Source: Paragonimus westermani (lineage: Eukaryota; Platyhelminthes; Trematoda; Plagiorchiida; Troglotrematidae). From it: a stretch of DNA of 64,000 bases. The DNA lies in assembly GCA_008508345.1 (NCBI GenBank), contig QNGE01002422.1, forward strand, positions 51,222 through 115,221, written 5' to 3'. Shown here one piece after another: positions 1 to 54,170 of the stretch. Under the pieces are notes generated by a model, which was given only the letters and a program-made list of their open reading frames with translations, made no database searches and was not told the origin of the DNA. The first letter of the stretch is position 1, and the number at the start of each line of letters is the position of its first letter. Made by a program: the position numbers and the translations under genes.

Positions 1-1970
1 GGAACATACTGCTTCTGTGCAGATTGTATTCAGCAGGCCATTGTCGATGGTTTGAGAAGCGGACAAGAGCAAATGCAGTCATAGTTAACAGCAACGTACT
101 GTATAGATGGTAGTGCATTTTGAATACTGACAGCATATGAATACGTGGCAACCGCATGGACTTGTGGGAATTGCGCTCACACGTGCCGTCACTGATGTTC
201 ACTATGTACCATGTGCCCTCGCGACTTACACGAAGCTATCAACTGACGTCACATAAAGTACAACGACCATGAACTCCTTCACTCGTTTGAAGTGCAGCAG
301 GGAAGTACGCCCACTGAGATGCTTCAACTCCAGTTGACTGGCGAACGATTTCAGCTGAAAGAGCATATTCTTAACGTGCACTTCTACGCTGACCACCCCC
401 CGGCGGTCGCAACCGTAGGTGCGCTGCATTTCAAACTCCCGCATTAGCCACTCCCTGTGGGACCAAATTTTACTGAGGGCCGTCGCCAAGTGATCTTTGG
501 GATGTGTTCTTCTTTAGTCACCCATTCGCATTCTCCAGACGGTTTCTGCACGGCTTTCGAAGTGAACAACATATGACTGTGCATGGATGGCATACATCGG
601 CTTTTTGAATAGCCAATTGCACAAAAGGTAGTCTGAAACCAGGAACTAATATAGCTTCAGGCTACAGCGGCGAATATGAAGTGACAGACGACTTACATGT
701 GGCGGTTGGTCTCATGTGTAGCATCGACGTTTTCTACATCAGGGCACCGTCTGATCAACTGCACTTGCTGCCTCCGTGCGAAACGCATATATGTATATCT
801 ATTATTTTCGTCTCTGATGGCATACAGTACACCGATTTTCTCTATATGATGCAGAATTTGTGGTAGGTTTTCTGCTATATTAGTGCATGCTAACCCACTT
901 ATTGCTGTAGATTTCGAACCGATGACGGTTATTGCAAATATCCCTGGTTGTTATATACTTGCCCGAAACATCTGCAGCATGCTGCCTCAACTAAGGAGTT
1001 GGCGTGTTGTACTCGGAAAGATGCCTCGAGTTGCTCACTTCACATTCTGTAGGCCGACGAGTCGTTGGGGTCTCATCGTACACGGAGGCAGTTATGTCGG
1101 GGTTGTGCTCCAACGTGAAGGAGCTAACAATCAACCCAGTTTTTTCCCAATCACGTTAAAACGTGATTGACAGGGTGTATCGCGGGAACTGTGCAATGGG
1201 TAGAGTGTGAAGTAAACTTGATAAACACGTCGTAACCCACGGTTCTTGCTCGCACGTCACTTGTATTTCACATTCCTGAACGTCATCTACTACGTAAATT
1301 CAACGGCAATCACGCTCACATGACCATATATTTCAAGTGTCCACTGCCTGATTTCTTGCTTGAACAACTCAAATGGGAGACGCCAATCCTTTATGTATCT
1401 ATTTGAGCAACTTCTAAACTTGGTGAAAATAACATACTCCCGACCCACAAAGACATATCTGAAGCCCGGCAACTAGTCCATCACCTAGGACGGAATGGAG
1501 GATGGAATCAAATCCACCTGCATTAGGCCGACAGAATATGTATCAAGACGTTCCAACAGCTTACCATACCATGCATCAATCATCAATAGGCGACGGTCGA
1601 ATATTAATCACACGTGAAAAACTTGTTCACAGAATAGCGCATTTATCTCGTCGCAACATATACTGTTGCCGATTTCGATTTTGGAGCCAAATGAAGGAGA
1701 AACCGATTTGCATTCTGCTAAAACAAAACTTTTTAGATCCCATGATCACTTCTTCCATGGAAATCAATTATTTTCAAGTTCCTGGGCTATACCGCAGGAA
1801 TATAATCTATTATCCAATGATTTCTCATTTTATTGCCGTAAAACGGCAGATTTCACTTCCAATGGATAATTTTAATCCTTGCATTGACTGGCTTTCAAAT
1901 TAACAGAAAACCGCCAGACTTCGAAACAAACTAACTGACTGGACCCGGTAGTTTGGGTCCAGCCACAAAT
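1..1970. other. No gene recognised
   Basis: Several short open frames occur on both strands, but none has a recognisable motif, domain or convincing start. The longest are an 87-codon minus frame near 226-489 and a 133-codon plus frame near 1502-1903. No repeat shared with the rest of the window was seen here. Probably intergenic or old repeat DNA. Confidence 0.4.
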
Positions 1971-2302
1971 AGGTGTACAAATCGTATTACTAATAAGTAG
2001 TGTAGCAGATTAATGAATTTAGATGAGACCCAACTGTGAAAAGTCAGGGCTTCGGCGTGAACTGTTTGAGAAATCCTGCCGGAGCAGTCGATCCCCTGAA
2101 TCATTTGGTGGATTCCATATGAGACAGTGGGACGGGTGGGTAACCGAGTCCAAGTGTGAAATTTCCGAGCTCCTGGTGTGGCTTCGTAGCTCAGCTGGTA
2201 GAGCGCTTGCCGCGTTGAGGCATGCCGTGTCTGTCGCTGGTTCGAATCCAGCCGAAGCCCTGACTTTTCACAGTTGGGTCTCATCTAAAGGTGTACAAAT
2301 CG
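1971..2302 (+). repeat. Foldback tRNA-derived SINE, copy 1, with target-site duplications
   Basis: A 14-bp direct repeat AGGTGTACAAATCG lies at 1971-1984 and 2289-2302 and brackets a 304-bp insert. The insert has a perfect 36-bp inverted repeat at 2021-2056 and 2251-2286 (outer ends AGATGAGACCCAACTG and its complement). At 2180-2259 is a tRNA-like unit: a 7-bp acceptor-type stem GGCTTCG/CGAAGCC, a box A (TAGCTCAGCTGG), a D-stem GCTC/GAGC and a box B (GGTTCGAATCC). Long target duplications point to LINE-type target-primed insertion, so this is a SINE and not a DNA transposon in spite of the inverted ends. A second copy sits at 39973-40241. Confidence 0.8.
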
Positions 2303-5570: not shown

Positions 5571-5646
5571 GAAGGTCGCGCGGCTGCTACGAATGTTTTT
5601 CCTGTTGATGTCAGGTACGGTGTAGTCCTTCTGTTTCAAAGGTACA

Positions 5647-7551
5647 ATGCACGGGCGTGTGAAGGTACGGCGGTCTGAGGAACAGGAAAAAACTCAGAAA
5701 GAAAAAAAAGAAAAGAGCGAGAAGGAACTGAGGTGCGCTCTGAATGACATATTTCGTTTCCGTCGCGAACACACGTACGAAGATAAACAACTTAAACTCA
5801 TCGAGGCTGTGATAGAAAAATGTGCCGAAATGACAACCTTATGGAATTACAGACGGGAAATATTAAAACATATGTTTATGTCTTTAGGTTATCCAAATGA
5901 TAAAGTGGGTTCGCTGTTAGATCATGAGTTATCACTAACAGCCAACTGCTTGACTAACTTTCCGAAGTCCTATGCTATTTGGCATCATCGTGTGTGGGTA
6001 ATGAGAAACCACGTATCGCCTTCCTGGGCCAGCGAGATTGAATTCTGCAACTCTGCCTTGAAATTAGATGAACGAAATTTCCATTGTTGGGATTATCGTC
6101 GCTTCGTGGTGTCTCAAGGAAAAATTCCAACCACATCGGAGCTCCTATATACTGAAGAATCTATAGGGATGAACATGAGTAATTATTCCGCTTGGCATTA
6201 TCGAAGTGAGCTGCTAAGTTCATCTCGTCCGTCGTCAGACACGTCTTTGCCGGTCAGTCCGCCTCCATCTCAGATCGTCGATTACTCTGCGGATTCGTTT
6301 GCGGATGCTTCGATCCCTGCTGCAGAGTTGGAGCTCGTGCATAACGCCATATACACTGATCCTAATGACCAAAGTCCGTGGTTTTATTACTGGTGGCTCT
6401 TGGGTCGTGGTATCAGAAAAGCATATCTTCGGGAACTGTACATATCCAGACCCCTTTCCCGCATTGTTATTGTGTTTACTTCGGCAAAGGCGCGTAGCGC
6501 TTTGGAACAGTTAGACGTCTCAGTTAAGGTTACCGCTCCATCCACAGCTCATCTGTTCGTAACAGTGGACGCATTAGGTGGCTGGCAGTCCGCTTTGAAT
6601 GAAAATGTCTCGGCTGTTTGGTGGTTGCCTATTTCTCCGGATCTCATCTCTTCATTTGCCCCCGTCGGTAATCAGGATGAGTTCGAGTCGGACTCCTTAC
6701 ATTTTGATGTTTCTGTCTGCATCAGAAACATTGGTAATTCCCACGAGTCAAAAGTTTGCACTAATCCTTTCTGCCCCCCAGACCATCTATTTTGTCTACA
6801 CTGTACGCTAGTTTCCACCCAGAATGAGTCACTCACTCGTGTTGATCTTGATCCGCTTCGACTGTTAAATCCTGTCATCTCGCCGACTAATGAGCCGTCG
6901 ACTTTGTCGGCCTTGCTGGACAACATTCGGGACCTGGTGGAGATGGAGCCTAAAAATAAGTGGGCTTTATTGACCTACATCGATCTACTGCGATTTGTCC
7001 ATCCCTCTGGATCAATCGAGGATATCAACCGAGCTTTGGATACTCTGATGTCTGTCGACAGCGAACGGACCGCTTATTACTTAGAAATGAAAGTATCTCA
7101 TTCTGTACAAGATGCACTTGCCTTTGCGTACAGCGAACGTTCACGTGAGGTCGTCATGTCTGGCTTGCGAATGCTGAATATGCGCTATCTTGATTGGTGC
7201 ACTTTACTGACTAAAATAGACTTATCGGTTAACAATATTATGAGGCTACCAGATACGATTGCGTATCTTATTTGCCTCTGTGAACTGAACTTGGACGACA
7301 ACTGTCTGGTTACCCTCAATGGAATCAGTCGTCTCCCTTCACTGCAGATTCTCTCGGCCCGGAGAAACTGTCTCAGTGAATTTTCCTCTATCGAAGAACT
7401 TTTGTTGTGTCCCAAACTTCAAAGCGCGTCAATTCATGGAAATAAAGTAACTGAACTGCCTTATCTCACTCGCCTACTTGCTGAACATCCTGGTTCCAAA
7501 GCCAAATCTCATTCTATTGTGGTTATTTATGACAAATCGTTGCAATTGTGA
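5647..7551 (+). CDS. RABGGTA: Rab geranylgeranyltransferase subunit alpha, single exon
   Basis: Alpha subunit of the cytosolic heterodimer that, with RABGGTB and Rab escort protein, adds geranylgeranyl groups to C-terminal cysteines of Rab GTPases. The 634-residue frame starts with MHGRVKVRRSEEQ, closely matching the conserved family N-terminus, which fixes the ATG at 5647. Prenyltransferase alpha repeats are visible as LWNYRREIL (about residue 64), AIWHHRVWVM (110), CWDYRRFVV (148), AWHYRSELL (184) and PWFYYWWLLG (244). The poorly conserved stretch at about 260-400 fits the Ig-like insert of animal subunits, and KWALLTYIDLLRF (about 437) is a further helical repeat. The C-terminus (about 515-610) has leucine-rich repeats (LTKIDLSVNNIMRLP, LCELNLDDNCL). 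From memory the human protein is about 567 residues; the extra length lies in the N-terminal charged stretch and loops. No intron interrupts it, unlike POLK nearby; it may be a retrocopy that kept an intact frame. Confidence 0.95.
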   Translation: MHGRVKVRRSEEQEKTQKEKKEKSEKELRCALNDIFRFRREHTYEDKQLKLIEAVIEKCAEMTTLWNYRREILKHMFMSLGYPNDKVGSLLDHELSLTANCLTNFPKSYAIWHHRVWVMRNHVSPSWASEIEFCNSALKLDERNFHCWDYRRFVVSQGKIPTTSELLYTEESIGMNMSNYSAWHYRSELLSSSRPSSDTSLPVSPPPSQIVDYSADSFADASIPAAELELVHNAIYTDPNDQSPWFYYWWLLGRGIRKAYLRELYISRPLSRIVIVFTSAKARSALEQLDVSVKVTAPSTAHLFVTVDALGGWQSALNENVSAVWWLPISPDLISSFAPVGNQDEFESDSLHFDVSVCIRNIGNSHESKVCTNPFCPPDHLFCLHCTLVSTQNESLTRVDLDPLRLLNPVISPTNEPSTLSALLDNIRDLVEMEPKNKWALLTYIDLLRFVHPSGSIEDINRALDTLMSVDSERTAYYLEMKVSHSVQDALAFAYSERSREVVMSGLRMLNMRYLDWCTLLTKIDLSVNNIMRLPDTIAYLICLCELNLDDNCLVTLNGISRLPSLQILSARRNCLSEFSSIEELLLCPKLQSASIHGNKVTELPYLTRLLAEHPGSKAKSHSIVVIYDKSLQL

Positions 7552-23100: not shown

Positions 23101-26100
23101 CTTCCCGTGGCAGTAGGAAGCAACAGTATGTTAGTAAGTTCGATTTGTGATACACTTGCTTACTTGTGTTTAATTGCCCCTGAAGTGTGTTTTACGGTTT
23201 TATGTGGTTGATGGAAGCAATCCGGTCTTCGTAGTCCTTCATAGGATTTGTGTGCTGAGTACAAGTTGAGGGAAAGCTTAACGGCTTAAAAACGTGTGTG
23301 GGCTTACAAAACTTTGGTGCATATGAAGGAATGGTTACAAGGCAAGACAGAAACATTTTAATCTGTTAAGTAGGCCGCAGGCTCAGAACGGAACGAATGA
23401 GTAGCAACAGCAATGAAACGTCGAACAAAACTTCACTTTTTCGGAGTGATTCTGTTGGGCAGCTTGCTAGAAGACGATTCAGTGCACTATTCCCTCCAAC
23501 AAGAAACCTCTTCGTGGGAGCTCAAATGTCTCTTCAGTAGGTTGACAATTTCCGCTTGGGTAAAGGACATTTCAATCTCTTCGAACCGAACCGATCTTGA
23601 CGTGGAACCGCGAGTAGAACAGAGTTGCTCTGTAAGGAAAGTCAAATTATACATTTACTCATGTTTAACACCGTGATCTCCTCGGGACCATTTTTAGCAC
23701 TTTAATGTACCGCAGACCCTCTAGGTGGAAGTACGCTATCGAGTATTCCCGGTTTATAATTTGCAGTATGGATTATACTAGTATGATGTGTTGAGGGCAA
23801 TGGTGTATCATACGTCGAGGTAGCCAATAATATTATACGCCATTGTTTTCAATTAGGGTGTAAAAAACAAACAACAAAACCGGTCGGTGTTGCCCTCATG
23901 TAGTCTCATGGTTACACACAAGACGCGCTATTACTAGCCTGGACAGAATCCACCCAACTTTATTTCGAACTCAGAACCCCCGGACTAACAATTCAGCTGT
24001 CTGTCCATGGCGAAGATACGGTCCGGCAATTTCAATGTCGGCCAGTGGATTATACATTTGAAGTCTACACGCCCAGTCAATGTTGGGTTGACGCATCAGT
24101 GTGAATGCGCCATAGCAGTCTGATCTAGCTGTGTCATTTTACCGAGATAATGTTTTATACATTTGCACTTACTTTGTTTTCTATAAAGGTTGTTGAACCG
24201 AAATTCATCTCGTAGTTTTCTGATAGTATCTGTATATTTGTTGCGCAAGATGGATGTTGTGAGCTTATTGATAAGAAGGGTATTCCCAAAAATTGGCATG
24301 GCCGTGTTAATGTTGTAGAATGTATCCCACAAAACGCCCTTCGATATGCTCAACAGTTCGTTCGTTTGATTAGTATTAACTTATTCCTCGATGCAAGTTA
24401 GTCTTCCTTTTAACGGAGACGTAGCTGCAGCTAAGTCAGTACGATTGTGAACGATTCACTTGCGTGGGCAAAATCGTCCTTAACAGGCCTTTCTCACGTG
24501 AGTGAGTTCACGTTCTTTCAGGTCTGTTCTGTGATCACTGTGTGAACAAGTGGGATGCGATCCAGCAAAATTGCTATGCTGTTTCTTGGTTGAGCTTGGA
24601 CCTCCCACCTAGTGAAAGACTGACTGATCTTGATTATGCTGACGACAAGGTGTTGCTGTTTGACAACTTTCAATCGGCACAAGCGATGCTCGACGCTATT
24701 TCGCGTTCTGCAAAATACTTCGGAATGCGCTTTGCAGCCTCAAAATGCAAAGTGCTTCTGCAGGATTGCTGTGGTCACGTAGATTTGATGTTAGATAATG
24801 TAGTGATGGAGGTTGTTGACCGGTTTGTATACCTGGGAAGCTGCATCAGCGGTGGCGGCAGCGGAGGTGTAGGGAATGAAATAGAAGCGCACATCTCCAA
24901 GGCTAGGGCGGTGTTCGCGAGGCATNTGGAGACACTAGGTGAGATGGCGGCTAATCGAGCTCAGTGGCGTGAATGTTGTCGTTGTTTTTCCGAGTTGTCT
25001 GTGAAGTAAGTGCATTTAATGACGCGGGGCAGTGAAAGCCATAAGGAAGCTGTCTCGCTGATGACGCCTTACCCTCACTTGCAGCTCGGTTGTGTTGTTT
25101 GCAAGGTGTAGGCACCTTGATGTTGAATGTTTGAATATGGACGTAGTCATTTTCAGTAGATAGGTCCCTTCCCGTCCCCTTCTTTTTTCTTCTCTCTCTC
25201 TTCCTATATAGGGTTTGCTGTTTCTTCATGGTTGTGTGGCAGCTAAGCATTGGTGTGAACCACTGATGTATTGCTGTCTATGATGATGATGATGATGAGA
25301 TTGGCCATTTACTCCCCCAAAGTTGTTTGGTGTATGTTTCTGAGAGATTTATCTATTGAAAAAAGATACGTGGTGCAAAAATTTCGTACCTCATAAAAAC
25401 GTTTCTTAGACGGGCGCGCTCTTTCTTCGAGTTTTCTTTCTGCGGAAACTGAATTGTGAATGGTTGCTCCAATTTAACGCTTTACTTGGTCTACGCTACT
25501 GTTTCAAAGTAAGTAGGAGAAATCAGTATGTAGGTGGTATTTTACTTGATTTTTCGTGACTTATCATCTAACAGGCGGTCTTCCACTGCTTCAGTCCACC
25601 AGTAACTACATCGCTCGACGTTATGGAGTGCGCGCGGGACTCCCTGGGTTTTTAGGCAAAAAGCTGTGCCCAAATTTACGTATTATTCCGCCGGATTTTG
25701 CTCGATACACCGCTGCCAGCTACGTGGTCCGGGATGTACTTCGAGAATACGCCACCACTGCAGGAATACATACACCTTCTCCTGAGAAAGACCAAGCGGA
25801 CGTGAATAGCACGACAAAATCGACTGCAGCCATGGTCACAGCCAGTTTGGATGAGGCGTACGTGGATTTGACGAATCATTTGGATGAGCGAGCAAAGTGG
25901 CCAGAAGAAAAACGCTCGTTCTGGCCCCGAGTTAATCGCAGTGCTCCAATGCTTGTTTGTCGGTCAGTCGTTTTACTTGTGTTTACACGATTGCCGATTG
26001 ATGAATTCACATCAGCAGCCCTGCTATAGAGATTTTTTGTGTGGAAAATCGTTGTGACAACCTGTAACCTCTCATCATCAGTGAATACTATGCACGCCGA

Positions 26101-29100
26101 TAGAATTTTTTTGTTTTCCTTGATTGTCGACTAGGAAAGCTGAACTTGGATTCATAGGCATCTCAGGAAATTTACTGATTGGAGGAAGCTGAGAACGCTA
26201 ATGTACGTCTGAATCTGTGTTGTACGGCCAGGGAAAGAAAGGCAAATCGGAAGGTTGTTTCAATTTCAGACGGTCAGCAGTGGAAAGACTGCGAAGGGGA
26301 AAATCGGAAGACAGTGAGCAGAAGGGAAACCCAACCATTGTCCATCAAGCATATAACAATTGGGGTGAAACGTACAGCTGACAAATGCTGACCAGCACCA
26401 ACAGTGAGAGGTTGAGAGTATCTTCATTCCACCGCAATGATCCCGATGGTCATGCTATCTGAATGCTCGGTTTGGTGTCCCAAATGTGTGCGTTAAGACT
26501 GTGCCTTAATTTATCTACTGATGACAGTTACAATAGACTCTGGTCGGTTTTACTAGATCGGACACATCCGGACGCCATAAGACTGTTCTCTTCAAGTCAA
26601 ACGGCTCATTTATGGACTTAACGAGTTGCCTCTGGGATAGTTACTTTCGCTAGGCAAGTATTTTTCTGTAGAAATGTTGCGGTTGATAGAAGATCTCTCA
26701 CTGAAATCAAGCGTTCTCTTGTATGGTGGCAACGCATTGAAAATTGCACCAGTTTGCCTAGCCTGTGTGAGTAGAAAGTAGAACGTAGTGTCGCAACCCG
26801 TTTTGTAGTTCTACTTTTTCTCTTCTCACTAAGACTAGCGTCTTTTACGATATAAGGACGACAGACTTAGATATTTACCATACAATAGAAATGCATTAGC
26901 GGGTTAGACATAGTAGTGAAACAGTGAGTGGAGCTGTCCAAACAGTCTGAGGAGTAGCCCAAGTACCGAGTTGGCTTTCTTGGCCATTGACACACTACTG
27001 GGAGAAAGACTAAGGTTACTAGAGACTTGAGAGGAGACACGGTAACTGCTCTGTTAACTCCAATCGATGACCCCTCGATTAGGACTTCTCTGCAAGTTGA
27101 AGTTACGGAAATCACTAAATTGTCCAGCAACATTTTGATTACTGTTGTGCAGTAAGGGGTATTCGTTTTGATATAAATTGGACAACACCCACAATTGATC
27201 GCAACTGGTACATTCCCATAGACTTTCCAGTTGGCCCCTCATGAGAGCGTGGATAGAATTTTAGTCTCGGCCGTGGCAAAGATATGTACTGTTGAAGAGC
27301 TTTAACAAGAGTGAAATCCCAGCCTAGTACTTGTTTTCGGAGGGGGCTAACCTGAAGGTCTATGGGAATGAGACAGCTGCGATCAATTGTGAATGATGTT
27401 CAATTTATCTAGGTTTATTATCTCTGGTTTAGTTTTTTTTACGTGGAACCTCACAAACAAAACATTCCGCGTCCGTTGAATGACTGAATTAAGTATCTGC
27501 ACGTTTCTTCATGTATGTCAACTTCCTTTCATTCAGATGTCACAGTCAGGCGGTTCGTAAAATGGGTTCTCATGTTTTGTCGACACCTCCGCCGAAGACT
27601 ACAGCTTCCACTGACGTTCCAGCTGGGTCTGCCTACTTGGATGAATCATCATCCAACGAAGCATCTGCTGAGGAAGCGAAAGTGGACGAAGAATTAGCCG
27701 TTTGTAAAAATTGTGGTCTCTTTCTTAAATCTGGGCTGCGTGTGTTTGGGACTAGCGCTTGGGAAGCGGTGCGCGAAATACGTTTTCGTATCTTTTGCGC
27801 CACAAAACTTACGTGCAGTGCTGGTACGTTGCGCACATATTGACTGCACCTATGGCTACCGATTATTTTCATAACTTTACAGTTGTTGGAACACAAAATG
27901 ATTGTGAATCATGCTTATTATGTGGTTTTAGTCGAGCTGTATTCAAATTTTACGGTTCTACTTCTTACCCTAATAGTTCTTCGTAAGCAGTTGATTTCTG
28001 TGACTTGAAAACGTTCACAGGCTTTCCGATCTGACCATCTTTACCTATGATGTAACGCACCTTTTCCTTGTTAAAACGGTCAATCCTGGCTTGGATGCTT
28101 TACTCGGACCCTTGCTGTACGGCTTCACCAAGCACGGAGTCAGGGAGAACAAGACTGCGTAGAAAACACGCTGTAATGCCGATTACCACTTCGACAAATG
28201 AATGAAATGCATGCAAATATAAATCATGAGTTAGTCTCCAAATATAGCCAATTACACGTTGAACCAGTGTCCAGTGGTTTAGGCCACTTTGCGATTAGGT
28301 GGCGCAGTATGGTCAGTTCCTTAACCGTTGCACTCTGATTGGTTCATCGGGATAGCACGATACCCACGTCCACCTTCATGCCTCCTCCTGATTGGTTCAA
28401 CTGGAAAACTTTGCACGCTAGTGTTTCGTTGATGAACGATTTCGTCAGCCGTCGCCGATGGCCAGATTAGGTTATTTTGATGATGTCTCTTAACAGCCTA
28501 CCAAGTTGTGCTGTTCATAGTGTGGTGGATTGTCAGGCCGGAGGTGCGAGTTTTCGAGCGCTCGGCCGAATACCTCAACGCGGGGGGAGGTACGTTCAAA
28601 AGCCTGTCGCGATCGAATCAAGAACAACGGGCGCGACCGGATGAGTCATCGCTCGACTGGATCGGACCAACGGGCGAGGCAGGGCAGGCGAAATACGACA
28701 GACGGCCAGATCGGAGGCGTGGTTTTTCCAACATTTAGAGGAACATCTCGACACGATGTTGGAATACGGTCAAGGCCAACATTGGGTGGATGGCGGACAG
28801 CACGAGCAGCCGGACGAGCCATCGCGCAACGAAATCGGACAAACAGACGAGGAATGGCAAGCGGAAAACCCTCCGATAGAAGGCACCGGTCACACACGTA
28901 AACCGGTTAGAAGTGCACACGACGTGTGAACGGAAACCGGGGGGTGCTGCGGGTTGGAATTACGACTCATAAACGAGAGAGCGCGCGTTGCATGTGACTG
29001 GCGATTTGGACAATAAAGATTGTGCTTTATTGGACGCCTTTTCGCTACAATAGCATCATAGTGTTCACAGGTTAAACGCATGACCGACTGTGTCTAATAG

Positions 29101-32100
29101 TAGTGTTAACTTAGTATTGTTTACCTTTCTTGTTAAACGACTTTCCCATTTGTTGGCATATGTTGAGAATGTCGCCTGAACTATTCGAAAAATGTGCAAC
29201 TAAATTTTTTTGTCTCCCTCCTCTGGGAGAAGTTTCAGGGGAAGCATCTGATACCATAGTAATCAAATGCAGTGTATGTGCTAAATTAAATGGATTCGCG
29301 CCTTTTTTTCTGGATGAGCTGTAGATCTTAGAATCAGTAAGTGTTGTTAGTCAACACCAAACTGTAGACATTGACCGTCTTTTTTATATGTTTATGTTAT
29401 TTTCCGCAATTCATTAATCTGTTTTATAATTCTCTGTTTCTGATGGTTGGGAACAGCGGTGTTGTTTGTAGATCAGGTTGATGGTTTTGGTATTGATATG
29501 TTCAGCGTATATACGCTGGTGTCACCTCGCCTGGTGATGAAACGTTTGCAACCTAAATGCCAAGCTCGGCGAACATATCAATACCAATATAATTATCTGT
29601 TTTTACCGTTTGGTTTTAACAATTACACATTCATTTCGATAAAGCTAAGAAACCTTACACAATCATTATGTGGCATATAGAAAAAAACCTGATGTAGAAC
29701 GCGCAGTGAATCCAGCAAAAGGAGTTAGTCTTTTTTATAGTTTGAATGGTCCTGTCTTTCTGGTGGCAACATTGCTACTCCGTTCTTACGCATTTGTCTG
29801 CATCACTTTCTGACTGTCTGATACGACTGAAACCGGACCCCAGATTCTTTTTTAAATTTCTTTGGTGAATCGCCCTTTCATTTAAATTGGGCTGTAGTCT
29901 TATATGTTCGAAACCTGGTGCAACACGTTTTATGTTTGTAGCAGGGACTGGATTTTTTGGGTTGTTCTGTTTGAGATCTGCTAGCTTAGCTTAGTAGTGC
30001 TGCTTATAATTAGCCGTTTCTACAGAACAACATTATGGGTAGTTGTAAAAACAAGACGTTTCGCTTTTAATATGTTCAGGTGTCGGACATATTGACCCAT
30101 TTTTCCGGCACTTGTTCATGTGCCCATCTTTCCGTTAAAGGGATTGGACCTAACACGCTGATCGCCAAAATCGCCTCCGATTGGAGCAAACCTCGTGGCC
30201 AATTCGAGGTGACGTGCTCCGTGGAAGCAGTGAATAAATTTATGCGGCAACTGCCCGTTCGAAAGGTAACAACTTCGATTTGTTTCCTCATCAAGTGTTG
30301 CTTGTTCTCATACGTCATTTCGTTGGAGATTGCAAATAAGGATAGCACCTATATTATTTTGTGAATTGCTGGCTGACTCTTATGGCAGTCGAGTGACTAG
30401 ATCTCATGCGAGTTGAACCTGCTGCTGGGCCTCACAAACTCCCGTTGGTGTACTGGCAGAGTTGCGGTAGGGATAACGAAGACGCTGTTTTGTTGGCGAT
30501 CGATGTTGGTTCCTAAACTGTTCACGTACATCTGTAACAGAGACTTCATCATGACGCATGCATGTTTATCCGTTAGCAGGGCTGCGTTGACCATTTTGAA
30601 TTGTTGTGCGTGGGCCTGTTTCTGGCCGCTTTAAGCATCCTTTCAAAAGCAGATCGGTGCAGAGTAGTGTGCCACGTTTTCACGTTGGACATCATCTTGG
30701 TGTGTTCATTAGTGGTTGGATGTACTAGCTAGAGAGTTAACCAATGGAGACTGTTCGCTCCGTTGGGCTTGGGGTGCTACTGATGTGAAGGTGAGCAATT
30801 GAGTCATCCTGGGACGGTATCCAATTAGACCCCTCAACTACTATTTCCACCGCGAATGCGAATTCTGTTATTTTGAGATGATCGATAAAACAACGGTTCC
30901 GACTACGATAGAAATAATTGAAATCTGGGAATACAACCTGGTTGATACTGAAGCAGCGATTTCGTTGTTTTTGTGAAAACCAGTGAAATGCGTAGGCCGT
31001 ATACAATGATCCTTTGGATGATTGATAAATTCGAGCTCACGTTTGCTGATTTTACCAGGCACGTTGTTTGAATCAGCTGTCACTTAATCGGGCCGTCGTT
31101 CGTGTTCTCTGTCACGCCAGACCATGCTGTGAGTGGTCATAGCAGGGAACCGAACAGCAAGTAAATAATGTGCTGACAGAAGAAATCGAAGAATCGATTA
31201 ACTGTTTCACTTCCCTCTTCCTGCCAGTGAAAATATTCGGCGGAAAAGTTCGATGTTTTGTCGCTTCTGGAAAGTAAATGAAATTGCAATTGATAAGGCA
31301 TTTCCCATTCCACCTGTGTCGAAAATAGTCGTTAAGTTACGGACGAACAGAATAATCACTATCCTGGAGTTCTCTCCAGAATATCAGTGAGTGCCAGTCT
31401 GCTAACCCAATCATGGCAAATGGCTTACACTTTGTGGTGTAAACATTTGTGATTTAGACCTATCGTTTTGTTTAGTAAGTCTCATCTATACCTTCGGACA
31501 ATCGATACTCCACGCTGTTTGTTGGCCACTCACTTTTCTTCAGAGGCAATATCGTCATCTACAGCATTTGTAAGACAATATACGATGGATGCTTCGATCT
31601 CATGGTGGGGAGTAGAAGAAGCTGGCATGCAGATCAGTTGCCCGAAGCCACAACTGGTGGAACAAATGGCGATACTGTTCGGTCACAAAATGAGTCACAG
31701 CCAGATCTCATCACAACCAGGTAAACTGACGGCGTTCAAGGGAAATCCGGTGCTTACATCGAGGGGAACATAGTGACAGTTTCTTGGTTGATTTTTCTTC
31801 TACAGTCACTTCATCAAAATCTTGTGTTATCACGGTCACTGTACAGGCGGATACAGAAGACGTGTCGATTTCACTAGTCGTAAGGCACCAAGCATGCTTT
31901 CGCCAGAACCCAACGACTACTGAAGAAAGGACATTTGACTCTGAATTAGGCACCAGCTGGACAAGGCTTCACAACCACAGCGTGCATAACGGTGTGGGGA
32001 TAGAACCCCTTTTGACTCAAGAAGGAAGTGCATAAAATAGGTCAGCCGGATTTTTAAGTCGGATGAACGGTACTATTTAACCATATCAAAAGTGTTTGAA

Positions 32101-38100: not shown

Positions 38101-41100
38101 TTTCATTGACACTGGACGTTCGCACGTCATACCTCCTTTTTTTTGCCGGAAGCTGGTGATTACTCAGTCGTTCTCCTTCCTAACCGTCTACCATAGGTTT
38201 AGTGTCCGGCCAACCAATGATCTACAGAGTGATTCACGAACCATCTCTGTGAGGTCTGAAATCAATTAAGGTAAATTTCCTCAGGTGGATTTTGGGTGGC
38301 TCATCTTTCTGGACGTAGAGTGCTTCCCTTACAGCAAGATGCTTCCGGAGGAAACGTTTCTTACGGGGACAGCACGATCTTCACCGCATCCTCATGGCGA
38401 TATGGGAACAATCCGTTAACTCTAACAGTAAGACGCTGTGTCGAATTTGTGCTTGCAACGAACAACTCACGCCAAATCGCGCCATCCATTGAACTAGTCG
38501 GCCTGTTCGCACACTGCGCGTTCGCTGGTCTAGCTTGTTCCTGTTTGTCATCTTCGACTACCTGCCTCACAAACTTTTACTCAAACCCACTTTATATGTC
38601 TAGGTTTCAGTGTCTACAATTAGTTTCTCATTCCACGAACAAGTCAGGCGGCGAACCGCACGTGCGTTTCCGTCACCTAATGTTGTCACAATTCTGTGAG
38701 ATGAAAGTCCTTTGGATAGAAAAGGTAGTCTCCGTAGTAGACAAGAATGATGCGAATGTTTTTAAAACACTGAATTTGACCGACAGAATGCGCTGTTTCG
38801 CCTTGCGTTACACACACACTATGCCCGTAAAGGCGACCGAGTCTCAATATGAGTCGCAAGTTTCGTCGGCGGAACAGTTACTGAAACATATGTTGACCCA
38901 GTTTTCCTTTGAAAATTAAAGTAATTTACAATAGATCCTGCCCAGTCACCAGATCAGCTTATGGGGTTTTAAATGAGCGTAATCTCTGTCTCAGTTCCCT
39001 CTTCTTGTTCCAAACTTCTTTCTATCACAGTCAACATGAACTACATGGTTGTATATCATCAGCGTTGTTTTAGGGAAGTTACCAATTAATTACTTTCTGT
39101 TTGGCTAACGTATACTTACTGGAACACCTCTTGATTAAGTGCACTTGACAATCCCGGCGGTTGTTTTCTATGTTATCACCGGTCTCCGTTTCATGTTTAC
39201 CTACGTTGATGTAAGGTACTCTCGCTGAGGGCAGATAGTGGGTAGGACCTACCTTGCAGCGACTGCTTAAGACGTTTCTTGAAGAGGATTTTGTTGATCG
39301 CTTACTAGAACGTTCATTCACCGCATAGATAGTTTTATCGTGTTAGTTTTTACTGTCCAGTTTTCCGTTATTAGATGTATAAGAATTCGTGTATATGAAT
39401 TCTACTTTGAGCCCGTGTCTTCCTAGCGCTTTGAATCGCGTGTGATTTTCTGGCGTTTATTTTCATTGTTGATTAAGTGCAACACATCAGTTTAACAGTT
39501 CACGTTTTCAACGTGTTTTTCTCACTAACGAGTTTGTGTGCTTATTGATTTAGCTTCTTTGCTGGACTCAGTCCGGTTCCCGACATGACAAGTGTGCAAT
39601 AGACGTCAAAGTGGCGGACGAATTGTCGCCCACTGGCTTGTGTGTCACCTGCCCGGTTTGTGGATTGGAACTGCAGGTTGCTTCGGAAGAACAGGTATGT
39701 CTGGTTATGTTGGCGTTGTGATGGATTCGCCGTTGCCCACCCGTTTTTGAGCTTTACCTGGCTATTTTTCTTTTGTGTATGCAACGATTTAATGGAGATA
39801 GTAGCCCTGTAACAGCTCTGTAGCTCTCATTTGGCTTCTTGTAGACTAGAATCATTCTAATATTCAATCACTATCAAACGCACAATTTCCGCTTTATTTC
39901 GGTCCACCTAGAATACGGATTTGGCTGCCCTGTGAGTACCTAACCAACTGTTGTTCCTAACAATCACATATCAATGGTGTATATTTCTGATGAGTAGTGT
40001 GGCAGATTTATGATTTTAGATGAGACCCAATGTGAAAAGTCCGAGCTTCGGCTGGGTTCGAACCAGCAACAGACAGCATGCCTCAACGCGGCAAGCGCTC
40101 TACCAGCTGAGCTACCAGCTGGCTTCGTAGCTCAGCTGGTAGAGCGCTTGCCGCGTTGAGGCATGCTATATCTGTTGCTGGTTCGAATCCAGTCGAAGCC
40201 CTGACTTTTCACAATTGGGTCTCATCTAAAATGGTGTATATGTTGAAAACACTTTTTTCTACCACTTTTATCGAAATAGTTGTGAACATTGGCAACTAAC
40301 TACTGTCTGTTTTTCTACTTAAACAATTGAATTGTTTCATTTGGATTGGTTTGATGGTCGCATGGAAACCGAACTGCCTCTCGTCTGACTTCTGGCCTTT
40401 TTTGCTCCTTAACCCATAGTCAGCTCTGCGGTTACTGATCGCTCTAATCGCAGCCAGTTTTAATATATCTGTTCAGAACTCATCAGCTGTACCTCCTCCT
40501 GTCTTGTCCAAATCGTTCATTCACCAATGTCTGTGATTTAAATCCTATTAGAATATCCACTTTGTTTCGCCTCGACTGAAACTGAGCGATCTGTTGATAG
40601 GAAGAACCGCGCCTCACTGATAGCATGTTTTGGTCCATGTTTGTATTTTGAGCCCCCTCCCAATCTTGGAAGCCTCTCTTCTAACTCCAGGATATGGATA
40701 CTGTCAGTGTTGGATTGTTTTCCAGGCCTGTCGTTTCCCTTGAACATCATCATGTCAAGTGGCATCTTCAGTACGGCTTCGTAGGAACTCCACATTGATG
40801 ATGGTGTTTTATATCGCTGGTCAGTTTTGTGTGCCTCCTATTTGTCTACCTAGTTCAACACTCATCTGGACGATTGTCTCAATCAGACTGCGATCGCAGA
40901 CGTTGTGCGCGAAAGAACATTCAGCGTCTCCCAACCAGCTATTGTGTCTTCACAATTCGGTCCGCGTTCTGAATCCAAGACACTAACGTGCCATTCCCCA
41001 TCTCTGTCTTCCTTCGTGCCGTGAGTCTCGCGTGCTTTGATTTGGTCAATATGAGTCAGAATTTACTTATCCAAAGCTTGCTTTGTGTAAATGAGCAGAC

Positions 41101-51156: not shown

Positions 51157-51704
51157 TTCTCAAGTTGAACATTACTGACATTTGATCGCATTCTTCGCAT
51201 TCAGATAGACTTTCCAGCCAGCCTCTTTCGAAAAGGAGCACGAGACTCAAGTTTCGCTTTCATTAGGGCATATCCTTGCCACGGCCGGGATTTGAGCTCC
51301 GGTCACGCTTTCATGAAACAACCGTGTTGACCACTGCCTCATTGACCTCACATTAGGCACGACCGAATTATCAATTCTGAACTGTCGACCACTTTCGCTT
51401 GTGAGCGTTGATCAGTCTCGAGAGGAGACACAATAATTGTCCTGTTAACTCCAATCGATAACCCCGCGATTAGGATTTCCTAGACAGGTCTAGATCACTG
51501 ATCTCAGCAAACCTGTTAGGCGATATTTTAGATTACACGGTTGCCTCATGAAAGCGTGACCGGAGCCCAAATGCCGGCCGTGGCAAGGATATGCCCTAAT
51601 GAGAGCGAAACTTGAGTCTAGTGCTTCTTTTCGAAAGAGACTGGCTGGAAAGTCTGTCTGATTGCGAAGGCTGCGATCAGATGTGAGTGATGTTCAACTT
51701 GAAA
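51157..51704. repeat. Foldback repeat family, copy B
   Basis: Arms of about 170 bp at 51157-51327 and 51535-51704 are inverted copies at roughly 88 percent identity by eye, with a 207-bp spacer. Shared words include AAGTTGAACAT, GACTTTCCAGCCAG, AGGGCATATCCTTGCCACGG and CCGGTCACGCTTTCATGA. The spacer carries GAGGAGACACAATAATTG and CTGTTAACTCCAATCGAT, also found at about 27030-27060. No coding frame; class unknown. Confidence 0.85.
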
Positions 51705-52255
51705 ATAAACCAAATCCTCGACTACTCAGTTTCCAATTCTTTTGTCGCAACTAAACACGACTGGGCTTGGTAGTCGCAGTTTTACGGTATTTGATCATTC
51801 GGAGGTGCGTCTACTACAAGTAGAAATGTATAAAGGTACTAATGATGTGATGAAGACACTCAGCCCCTTCGTACAGTGAACATGTCATCAGGCTGAAAAT
51901 TGACTTTCTAACCCTGCACGTTGCCTTCATGTTTTAGGTCACAGCTGACAAACATCTATCGTTATTCACAATCTTACAGAGGTGTAGATTTCCATTATAC
52001 ATTCTTTATTCCTGCTCGTAGAAGGCGTATTATCATATCTTCGATCCACCTTACATTCCTCTAACTTCAGACATTCTTCAAATTAGAAGTAGAAGCCACA
52101 TGACTGTTGGGTGCTATTTAAAAAAATTTGGGAAACCCATTGGTAACGCTAGTTATTAAGACAGATTAAAATAAAGTTTGCTGAACTTATCGCTTTCTAA
52201 AGGGATCCTAACGAGACATGGATGTTTTAGACAAATTCCCAACCTGCAGACTCAC

Positions 52256-52346: not shown

Positions 52347-53229
52347 CTGTAGGGAATAATGTTTAAAGAAAAGGATAACTTAATTTTTCACAAACAATAA
52401 AATATGTGGTTGTGTGCCTTCCGAATGGTCACCATTTTTAATGTTACGTTTGAGCGATGCAAAGCGGGGAAGGCGTTGTGCTGCTAGTAATTAATGGGGT
52501 TTATTTTCTTCCTGACTAATCTCAGTTGTTGAACATGATGGCTCGCCTAATTCGTCCAAATTCATTACCATATTTTCCACTTCGCACAGTTGGGCTTGAT
52601 CGCTGATAAACAGTCGGGCATTACCGCAAACTGGACATCAATGGCGAGTCGCAGCTTTCACGTTCAGGTGGGCTTTTTCGGTTACTCTTTCAGTAGTGTG
52701 TATGCGGCCTCGGATCAGGAGTTTAACATCATCCCTCATATTTGCACAATGCTATTGATTTTGGATCACATAGAATTGAATCACCACATTTTTAAAAGTT
52801 CGGCCACTTCTCCCTGTGTATCACAGAGGTTGCCAGATCACCCGATAACTTTCCACTGAACGATATAGCGTTCTTTGAACTGTAAGGATTAAATTGGCTG
52901 AGGACTTCTGCCCCAGTTTAGGTGTACAATGTCCAACGCGCGTATGGGTTCAGTGAGTCTGTATACTTGGGATTATACGTAATCGACTAACCAAGTGACT
53001 ATTTACGAATAAAGTACTTGCAGATGTGACATTTCATTATTTTCTTCACGCAACGGTAGCTGATCATTCATACTTAATCGTAGTCGGTCTTTTGAGGAGG
53101 CTGAGAAAAATACTCCCGATAAAAAACTGATCTACCAGCGGTTGACGGTGACCGTCGGTGTATTATTCTATGCGGTCCAAAAGCCCACAATAATTCTCAG
53201 GAACTCCATGTGGCTCACAATACATCTGC

Positions 53230-54068
53230 TGAGATCAGCAATGAGTCGTCAATGTCTCATTCTCTGCGCTCCCAGGCTTGGTAAATGTAATGACTGTGGA
53301 CAACACTACGTCGGCCAAACCGGACGGAAATTATCAACGCGAATACATGAACATAAAGTGGCCATCAAGAGGCACGATTCATTTTCCCTGATCTCCACCC
53401 ACGAGGATGAAACTGGACACGCCTTCAACCTGCATACCGCAGAAATCCTTACTCAGACAAACACCAAACATGCAAGAGAATTTCTCGAAGCTTGGTACTC
53501 GTCACCTGGGTCAGTAAACAAACACACCGAGCTGGACAAAATCTATGGGCCAATGCTAACCAAGGATTTGAGGAGAAGCAGAAGCCATCAAGCACAAATG
53601 GCGGTAAACCCAAACGGAGCAACCTGAGCTGATCGGACCAAAGTCGAGACAGAACAGTAAATAACCAATCGGACGGAATTCCAAAACGAAGAGATGATAC
53701 ACCCAGTCAATTCACAACCAATGCGATTCGAGGTCAAAATGCGATAGCGACACAGAGTGAAGCCAATCAGACTCCAGCTCAAGGACTCCGGGAAACAAAC
53801 AATCGGACATCGGGTCAAAGTTCAAGTGCAACAAAATAAACCAATGGTGAGTCAAGTCAAAGGTCAAACACGACGGAAAGTGACCGACCGGAATTCGGGT
53901 CAGTAGGTCAACTTACTGTGCTATATATTAGCAGGCATCCATCGAACTTCACCAAACCTCACGCTCAAAACTGTACGCGGAAATACTTACGCACTGATGA
54001 TGTCACCTCGCTTGGTGATGAAACGTTTGCAACCTAAATGCCAAGCTCGGCAGACATACCGATACCAA
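53230..54068 (+). mobile_element. Penelope-like element 3' part: GIY-YIG endonuclease and hammerhead-like terminus
   Basis: The frame 53142-53627 contains CNDCGQHYVGQTGRKLSTRI then HEHKVAIKRHDSFSLIS, TGHAFNLHTAEIL and EFLEAWYSSPGSVNKHTELD, the GIY-YIG endonuclease pattern of Penelope-like retroelements (HYVG, R in LSTRIHEH, E in EFLEAW). No reverse transcriptase lies upstream, so the copy is 5'-truncated. A 3' region of about 370 bases leads to the hammerhead-like motif at 53994-54040. The stretch ATGAAACGTTTGCAACCTAA and what follows it are shared with 29535-29570. Confidence 0.85.
53994..54040 (+). ncRNA. Hammerhead ribozyme-like core
   Basis: CTGATGA (53994-54000) is followed by stem II GTCACC (54002-54007) pairing with GGTGAT (54014-54019) over a 6-base loop, then GAAA (54020-54023), and a stem III of CGTTT (54024-54028) and AAATG (54036-54040) closing a 7-base loop. 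This is the conserved CUGAUGA-stem-GAAA arrangement of hammerheads, known from Penelope-like elements. After AAATG the bases are CC where a U before the cleavage site is expected, and the 5' strand of stem I is not evident, so this copy is probably inactive. Confidence 0.65.
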
Positions 54069-54170
54069 AGCGGGCGTTAGTTAGAAAATTTTCCAGTCCC
54101 AGTTCATTGGACTGTTAGATGAAAGAACTTCACTTGGTCACAATTACGTTGCAGGTTGATTGATTTCATA

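Follow-up and report, generated by a model that had tools for sequence, protein, structure and literature searches.

The DNA analysed in the present study is a stretch of 64,000 nt from the trematode Paragonimus westermani, referred to below as the window. It carries an ORF at 5626-7551 specifying the alpha subunit of geranylgeranyl transferase type-2 (RabGGTase alpha; 98% to a P. westermani protein), a reverse transcriptase fragment at 24506-25009 (RVT_1, E 3.8e-5, below the Pfam cut-off), parts of a Penelope-like element (PLE), and two insertions of a short tRNA-derived family, one of them a near-perfect palindrome. A second tRNA-like family, its boxes recognised by eye, is represented by inverted, tail-outward arms at 51157-51327 and 51535-51705 (91%) and by another pair at 27173-27238 and 27343-27408 (arms 82%); by eye, no clear target-site duplication (TSD) was seen for either of these two pairs.

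The palindrome at 39985-40229 is real, and it is flanked by an exact 12-bp direct repeat, AATGGTGTATAT (39973..39984 and 40230..40241, + strand, 12/12 identical). Its innermost arms are 41 nt long and 100% complementary on either side of an 11-nt spacer, and farther out there are two mutually overlapping segments, one of 48 nt at 88% and one of 19 nt at 100% complementarity. Overall the arms agree at 90% over 224 aligned positions, with small indels, which bears out the description of the locus in the earlier note as a near-perfect palindrome with a genuine 12-bp TSD. The two outer ends are designated S2 (left) and S1 (right), and the arms are named after them. From the left, the insertion consists of an inverted S1-S2 interval whose outer end is S2 (39985..40014, - strand), an extension of about 30 nt that is absent from the right arm and was recognised by alignment with the second window copy and other loci; the S2 arm, an inverted tail and a decayed tRNA-like unit (40015..40115, - strand; inverted-repeat and Rfam analysis); the spacer, which is the inner junction between the arms (40116..40126, no strand assigned; inverted-repeat analysis and junction comparison); and the S1 arm, a tRNA-like unit and a tail ending ..TCTCATCTAAA at S1 (40127..40229, + strand; inverted-repeat analysis). 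The tRNA-like region of the S1 arm (40121..40201, + strand) is called a tRNA by ARAGORN (Asn GTT) and by Rfam (45.5 bits against a gathering score of 29), so the tRNA derivation proposed earlier holds for the right unit, and the left unit is a decayed tRNA that falls under the gathering score (25.1 bits). Box A of the S1 arm, TAGCTCAGCTGG, and box B, GGTTCGAATCC, are presumed assignments, made by eye against the box consensus; a tRNA-like head (Rfam 45.5-47.1 bits) with such boxes is what a tRNA-derived SINE should carry. Folded as RNA, the palindrome strand gives one hairpin of -190.5 kcal/mol (z -24), a value equalled by none of 200 shuffles. A TIR transposon was considered and rejected, since on the S2 side the inverted tails stop short of the TSD.

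A second member of the family lies at 1985-2288 inside an exact 14-bp TSD (AGGTGTACAAATCG, left copy 1971..1984, right copy 2289..2302, + strand). Its S2 arm is short (1985..2056, - strand), being the inverted last 72 nt of the 305-bp unit described below (100% to unit positions 234-305). Its S1 arm is long (2055..2289, + strand; unit positions 38-272 by unit mapping) and extends about 125 nt into other sequence 5' of the tRNA-like region at 2180-2260, which rests on ARAGORN and Rfam. The outer ends of the two window copies are alike and their insides are different. The motif GGTGTA is common to both window TSDs, but among 25 tabulated sites none of the remaining 23 repeats it. A protein search found nothing resembling a translation of the second copy. 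Both this copy and the extension on the left arm of the palindrome had been missed in the earlier note.

The family was then sought throughout the Paragonimus assembly (823 Mb in 9701 contigs). With the palindrome as query, the best 40 of 2960 first-look candidates were scored and gave 87 matches, many places matching nearly the whole palindrome on both strands; with the second copy as query, the best 40 of 3505 candidates were scored, and these candidate numbers are not copy counts. The latter query exposed a young form built from a 305-bp unit, which comprises about 37 nt, about 125 nt, the tRNA-like part of 81 nt, a tail of 29 nt to S1 and 33 nt more to S2. Young copies are up to 100% identical over 268 nt. 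Dispersed copies lie inside TSDs, as those of a tRNA-derived SINE should, and there are also tandem arrays of 305-bp period with up to about 4.5 units (L091 501-1884, L083, L087 and L088). Some insertions have very unequal arms (the second window copy, L054-L059, L072 and L073), and others are one-sided. A single unit (L062) folds as a branched structure (z -3.0). Pattern scans for the element in viral and prokaryote contigs gave no match. Rfam found no hammerhead in five loci of the SINE at E up to 5, a weak null given that the PLE piece in L070, hammerhead-like by eye, also went uncalled and that minimal forms could be missed. A candidate hammerhead core box at 39987 (antisense CTGATGAG) was discarded, as other copies read CTAATGAG or CTAATAAG and Rfam called none.

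That the inverted form should recur at many loci inside distinct TSDs was the check proposed in the earlier note, and it does recur. The palindrome is therefore neither unique nor an assembly inversion, two of the circumstances held to speak against the proposal, although copies with a single arm, the third of these, do exist. A few insertions appear twice, in contigs C4223 (1-2 kb and 36 kb), C868 (5 kb and 32 kb) and C366/C6889, inverted within one contig or across two, through duplication or assembly error. As an account of the family as a whole, inverted duplication after insertion or faulty assembly can draw on these few places, but it is scarcely credible when dozens of loci differ in their flanks and TSDs.

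To read the outer ends, each insertion was mapped onto the 305-bp unit, S1 being defined as unit position 272 (..CATCTAAA; accepted window 264-280) and S2 as position 305 (..TTATTAGTAATA, in some copies ..TTATCAG or ..CATCAG; accepted from 290), which sits 33 nt further 3'. Many insertions are tail-out, that is, the element turns a 3' end outward on either side and the units stand head to head. With stricter scoring and three duplicate places (L020, L040 and L056) taken out of 79 rows, the table lists 76 distinct insertions, and all 41 two-sided, resolved tail-out copies are S1/S2, with none S2/S2 and none S1/S1; each of the two main queries has an S1 end and an S2 end, so that S1/S1 copies would score lower, and by the make-up of the queries S2/S2 copies should score equally with both. 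One 3' end was present in 29 copies of this table (23 S2 and six S1), and among the six S1 copies L075 has, by eye, a 9-nt inverted S2 end beside its TSD. Six of the 76 have an end at neither site and were excluded from the S1/S2 count (L005, L038, L042, L043, and L017 and L028, which fall 1-2 nt outside the S1 window). Five tail-out copies added later (L104, L107, L112, L113 and L114) are also S1/S2, which brings the total to 46 of 46 resolved. A query blind to the ends, made of the tRNA core only, gave 31 single-core places from the best 40 of 672 candidates scored, and 11 of them were read. Six of these were tail-out (L054, L107, L112, L113, L114 and L109), indicating that such copies are common; five were fully readable, all of them S1/S2, and L109 runs into masked N. 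The other five were one-sided, with S1 in L108, L110 and L115 and S2 in L048 and L111. The flanking sequence of L045, like that of L109, reads as N. Copies bounded by two reverse transcription start sites 30-40 nt apart are characteristic of Penelope-type elements, and S1 and S2, at 33 nt, bound the SINE copies in this manner.

TSDs are found at many loci of the family. Of the 50 copies that have a 3' end on both sides, 24 share an exact string of 9 nt or more across the insertion, as do 10 of 2450 mismatched pairs of flanks; for one-sided copies the figures are seven of 29 and 13 of 812. In the set of 46, the TSD length peaks at 12 bp, with 14 copies at exactly 12 nt, 25 at no fewer than 9, and 21 shorter than 9 exact nt. 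The A+T content is 75% in TSDs of 9 nt or longer and 61% in the flanks. The motif GTT is enriched past the S2-side end of the TSD (7/25 against a background of 3.2%, P 1e-5), with a weaker mirror trend past the other end (3/25, P 0.045), the GTT P value being optimistic because only copies with good TSDs were used and the motif was picked after the columns had been viewed.

The inner junctions are variable. Palindrome junctions were compared in 14 copies (13 distinct places) and are of several kinds, differing among most of the copies; L003 resembles L010, and L005, L006 and L016 are alike. An overlap of AGCT or GAGCT is present in many of the 14. The palindrome arms begin at about unit positions 131-211, near the 5' end of the tRNA, and in the young form one arm often extends to positions 1-49. 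These observations bear upon the proposal of the earlier note, by which the palindrome would be a dimeric SINE of fixed form whose transcript is a single long hairpin and which enters the genome by target-primed reverse transcription of LINE type. Near-palindromes with TSDs at many loci, and the junctions that are alike, would suit such an element, but it is very unlikely in view of the several different inner junctions and the very unequal-armed copies with the same outer ends. Moreover, both outer ends are fixed 3' sites in all 46 resolved copies, and with a linear dimer RNA one would expect the 5' end to vary. No hairpin RNA would be expected from the two Pol III promoters, both of which face outward.

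The two arms of a dimer can also be compared with each other. The mean distance is 0.092 within dimers and 0.105 between dimers, the former lying below all of 2000 shuffles; since subfamilies could produce such a gap, private variants were counted in place of distance (30 dimers, unit positions 182-264, with L020 and L052 being one place counted twice). Non-consensus sites shared by both arms number 21 against 5.0 +/- 2.8 expected, and rare variants 16 against 2.3 +/- 1.7 (500 shuffles each, with maxima of 16 and 10). At least one private variant is shared in 12 of the 30 dimers and none in 18, so that a single template is favoured, not proved, and later conversion between the arms could add to the sharing. 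Private variants common to both arms would be expected if a cDNA primed at S2 snapped back and copied itself, making the second arm a copy of the first. Such fold-back is nevertheless highly improbable, because in the second window copy and in L054-L058 the S1 arm reaches unit positions 26-42 and the S2 arm ends as early as 230-254, which leaves most of the S1 arm without a template in the S2 arm; a fold-back started at S1, for its part, could not produce the S1-S2 interval. Alternatively, the two sides may have been primed on two separate RNAs, with the shared variants arising from subfamily structure or later arm conversion. The 18 dimers that share nothing fit this, but we regard it as unlikely, for the total sharing far exceeds that of the shuffles, and separate RNAs leave the absence of S2/S2 copies unexplained.

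The same genome harbours a PLE that can be compared directly. In the window, 29441..29587 (+ strand) is by sequence comparison a tail-out copy of the PLE end, with S2 inverted at the left, S1 (..ATACCAA) at the right, and an unconvincing TSD. An ORF at 53064..53627 (+ strand) resembles, by eye, the GIY-YIG endonuclease end of a PLE; it has no Pfam hit, and its relatives P0121 and P0122 match PF01541 below the cut-off. The PLE end itself is at 53997..54070 (+ strand), where a hammerhead-like core, seen by eye and with no Rfam hit, is followed by sequence ending at the PLE S1. This end (54068-54070) recurs in L055, L056, L066 and L070 and at window position 29587, and a short PLE piece in L075 stops at 54052. 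A young SINE copy in L066 (1467-1758) lies about 17 nt away from the PLE end there. The query 29440-29592 gave 67 matches from the best 40 of 785 candidates, many of which span the whole query. All seven PLE copies inspected closely (L070 and L093-L098) are tail-out and S1/S2, the PLE S1 ending ..ATACCAA and its S2, about 49 nt further 3' (counted on L094), ending ..CCAACCATCA. Exact TSDs of 12-13 nt flank five of the seven; at L095 the exact match is 7 nt, or 12 by eye if one mismatch is allowed, and L093 has none that is convincing. The PLE and the SINE of one genome thus share a two-site, tail-out insertion anatomy. Their S1 and S2 sequences have a faint, short likeness by eye, none of the PLE sequences examined has an S1/S2 sequence like that of the SINE, and the GTT preference of the SINE is absent, by eye, from five clear PLE sites. 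The GTT preference and the faint likeness suggest that the partner may be another PLE than the one examined.

SINEs are usually assumed to depend on LINEs for their movement, and the earlier note had ascribed the palindrome to a single LINE-type insertion; a single event within a true TSD is upheld here, but Penelope-like integration matches the anatomy more closely than LINE integration does. Without a PLE, twin priming by a LINE or a different inversion of LINE type would account for inversions inside TSDs and for a target preference that differs from that of the examined PLE family. This alternative is quite unlikely, however, as twin priming does not leave an outward 3' end on each side at fixed sites separated by 33 nt, and tandem arrays and two sites are described as PLE traits in the relevant passages of PMC11167929.

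The feature is probably a tail-out insertion of a non-autonomous, tRNA-derived SINE made by PLE-type, two-sided target-primed reverse transcription. Both target strands were presumably primed, as the two outward 3' ends of the 46 resolved copies suggest. Weighing against the PLE reading are the 21 of 46 TSDs shorter than 9 exact nt, the 18 of 30 dimers with no shared private variant, a GTT preference unlike that of the PLE examined, the lack of a hammerhead call in the SINE, and the finding that the Anolis PLE protein started alike on both strands in vitro (PMC11167929). The order of steps, a PLE enzyme as partner and the use of one RNA for both strands may be pictured as follows. A Penelope-type endonuclease/reverse transcriptase would nick both target strands about 12 bp apart, and each target 3' end would start a cDNA within the RNA of the element, that of one strand from S1 (..CATCTAAA) and that of the other from S2. 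Both cDNAs would extend toward the 5' end of the RNA and be joined head to head at a microhomology, leaving an inverted insertion within a 12-bp duplication. If both halted near the tRNA 5' end, a near-perfect palindrome would result; unequal stops would give copies like that at 1985-2288, and one-sided events plain monomers. It is a reasonable but tentative suggestion that SINEs of this class parasitise a Penelope-like enzyme. Two enzyme units would load one behind the other on a single RNA, the front unit at S1 and the rear unit at S2, and each would extend one strand of a target cut with a 12-bp stagger; in that case an inverted dimer would be the usual outcome of a two-sided event, and a monomer that of a one-sided event.

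A short, abundant and partly young SINE with Penelope-type ends would be a natural reporter of PLE integration. The division between S1 and S2 provides a quantitative rule that any mechanism must explain, and it offers a simple explanation of how near-perfect genomic palindromes arise in one step, without later rearrangement.

Among known systems, tRNA-derived SINEs moved by LINEs share with this element a tRNA-like head, Pol III boxes, short length and TSDs, but here there are two outward 3' ends at fixed sites, and inverted dimers are a common product. L1 twin priming yields an inversion inside one TSD, with the 5' part of one RNA inverted; the SINE likewise shows inversion within one TSD, but it has a 3' end on both sides. 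An autonomous PLE carries reverse transcriptase and GIY-YIG, for which the unit is too short at only 305 bp; in contrast to a PLE, the SINE is a tRNA-derived unit that could not hold a PLE protein and has no Rfam-detected hammerhead. No title in the literature surveyed was on PLE-moved tRNA SINEs or tail-out SINE dimers, older PLE work being thinly covered there and the titles weak evidence of novelty. Sm-alpha of the trematode Schistosoma is a SINE-like element related to a tRNA (PMC2770079, PMC8490949), and both it and the metazoan retrozymes (PMC7761336, PMC7229834) resemble the present element in being about 300 bp long, non-coding and partly tandem. A possible difference is their hammerhead, none having been found in the SINE by Rfam in five loci, where minimal forms may be missed. 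The passages on Sm-alpha and retrozymes in these sources do not describe a tail-out S1/S2 anatomy, nor do the relevant parts of the trematode papers PMC12938311, PMC2770079 and PMC6530080 hold anything on tail-out anatomy; according to one review, retrozyme repeats in metazoans carry no motif that reveals the machinery used (PMC7761336). The closest counterpart is PAc, the Poseidon PLE of Anolis carolinensis; not until 2024 was a full-length PLE protein reported to be active in vitro (PMC11167929). In the passages of that paper relevant here, which mention no tRNA-derived element using a PLE system, the purified protein cleaves and extends both target strands in vitro and initiates cDNA synthesis at a pair of neighbouring sites inside the RNA; these two sites bound a 30-40-bp tail of genomic copies. 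The SINE is like PAc in its tandem or partial tandem copies (L083, L087, L088 and L091), a Penelope-type trait, in its two start sites with a 30-40-nt tail between them and in its AT-rich targets; to judge from its outward 3' ends, it may also share the use of both strands. It is unlike PAc in one respect: the strands show no difference in start site in the PAc reaction in vitro (PMC11167929), whereas the two sites of the SINE are split between the two ends of the copy.
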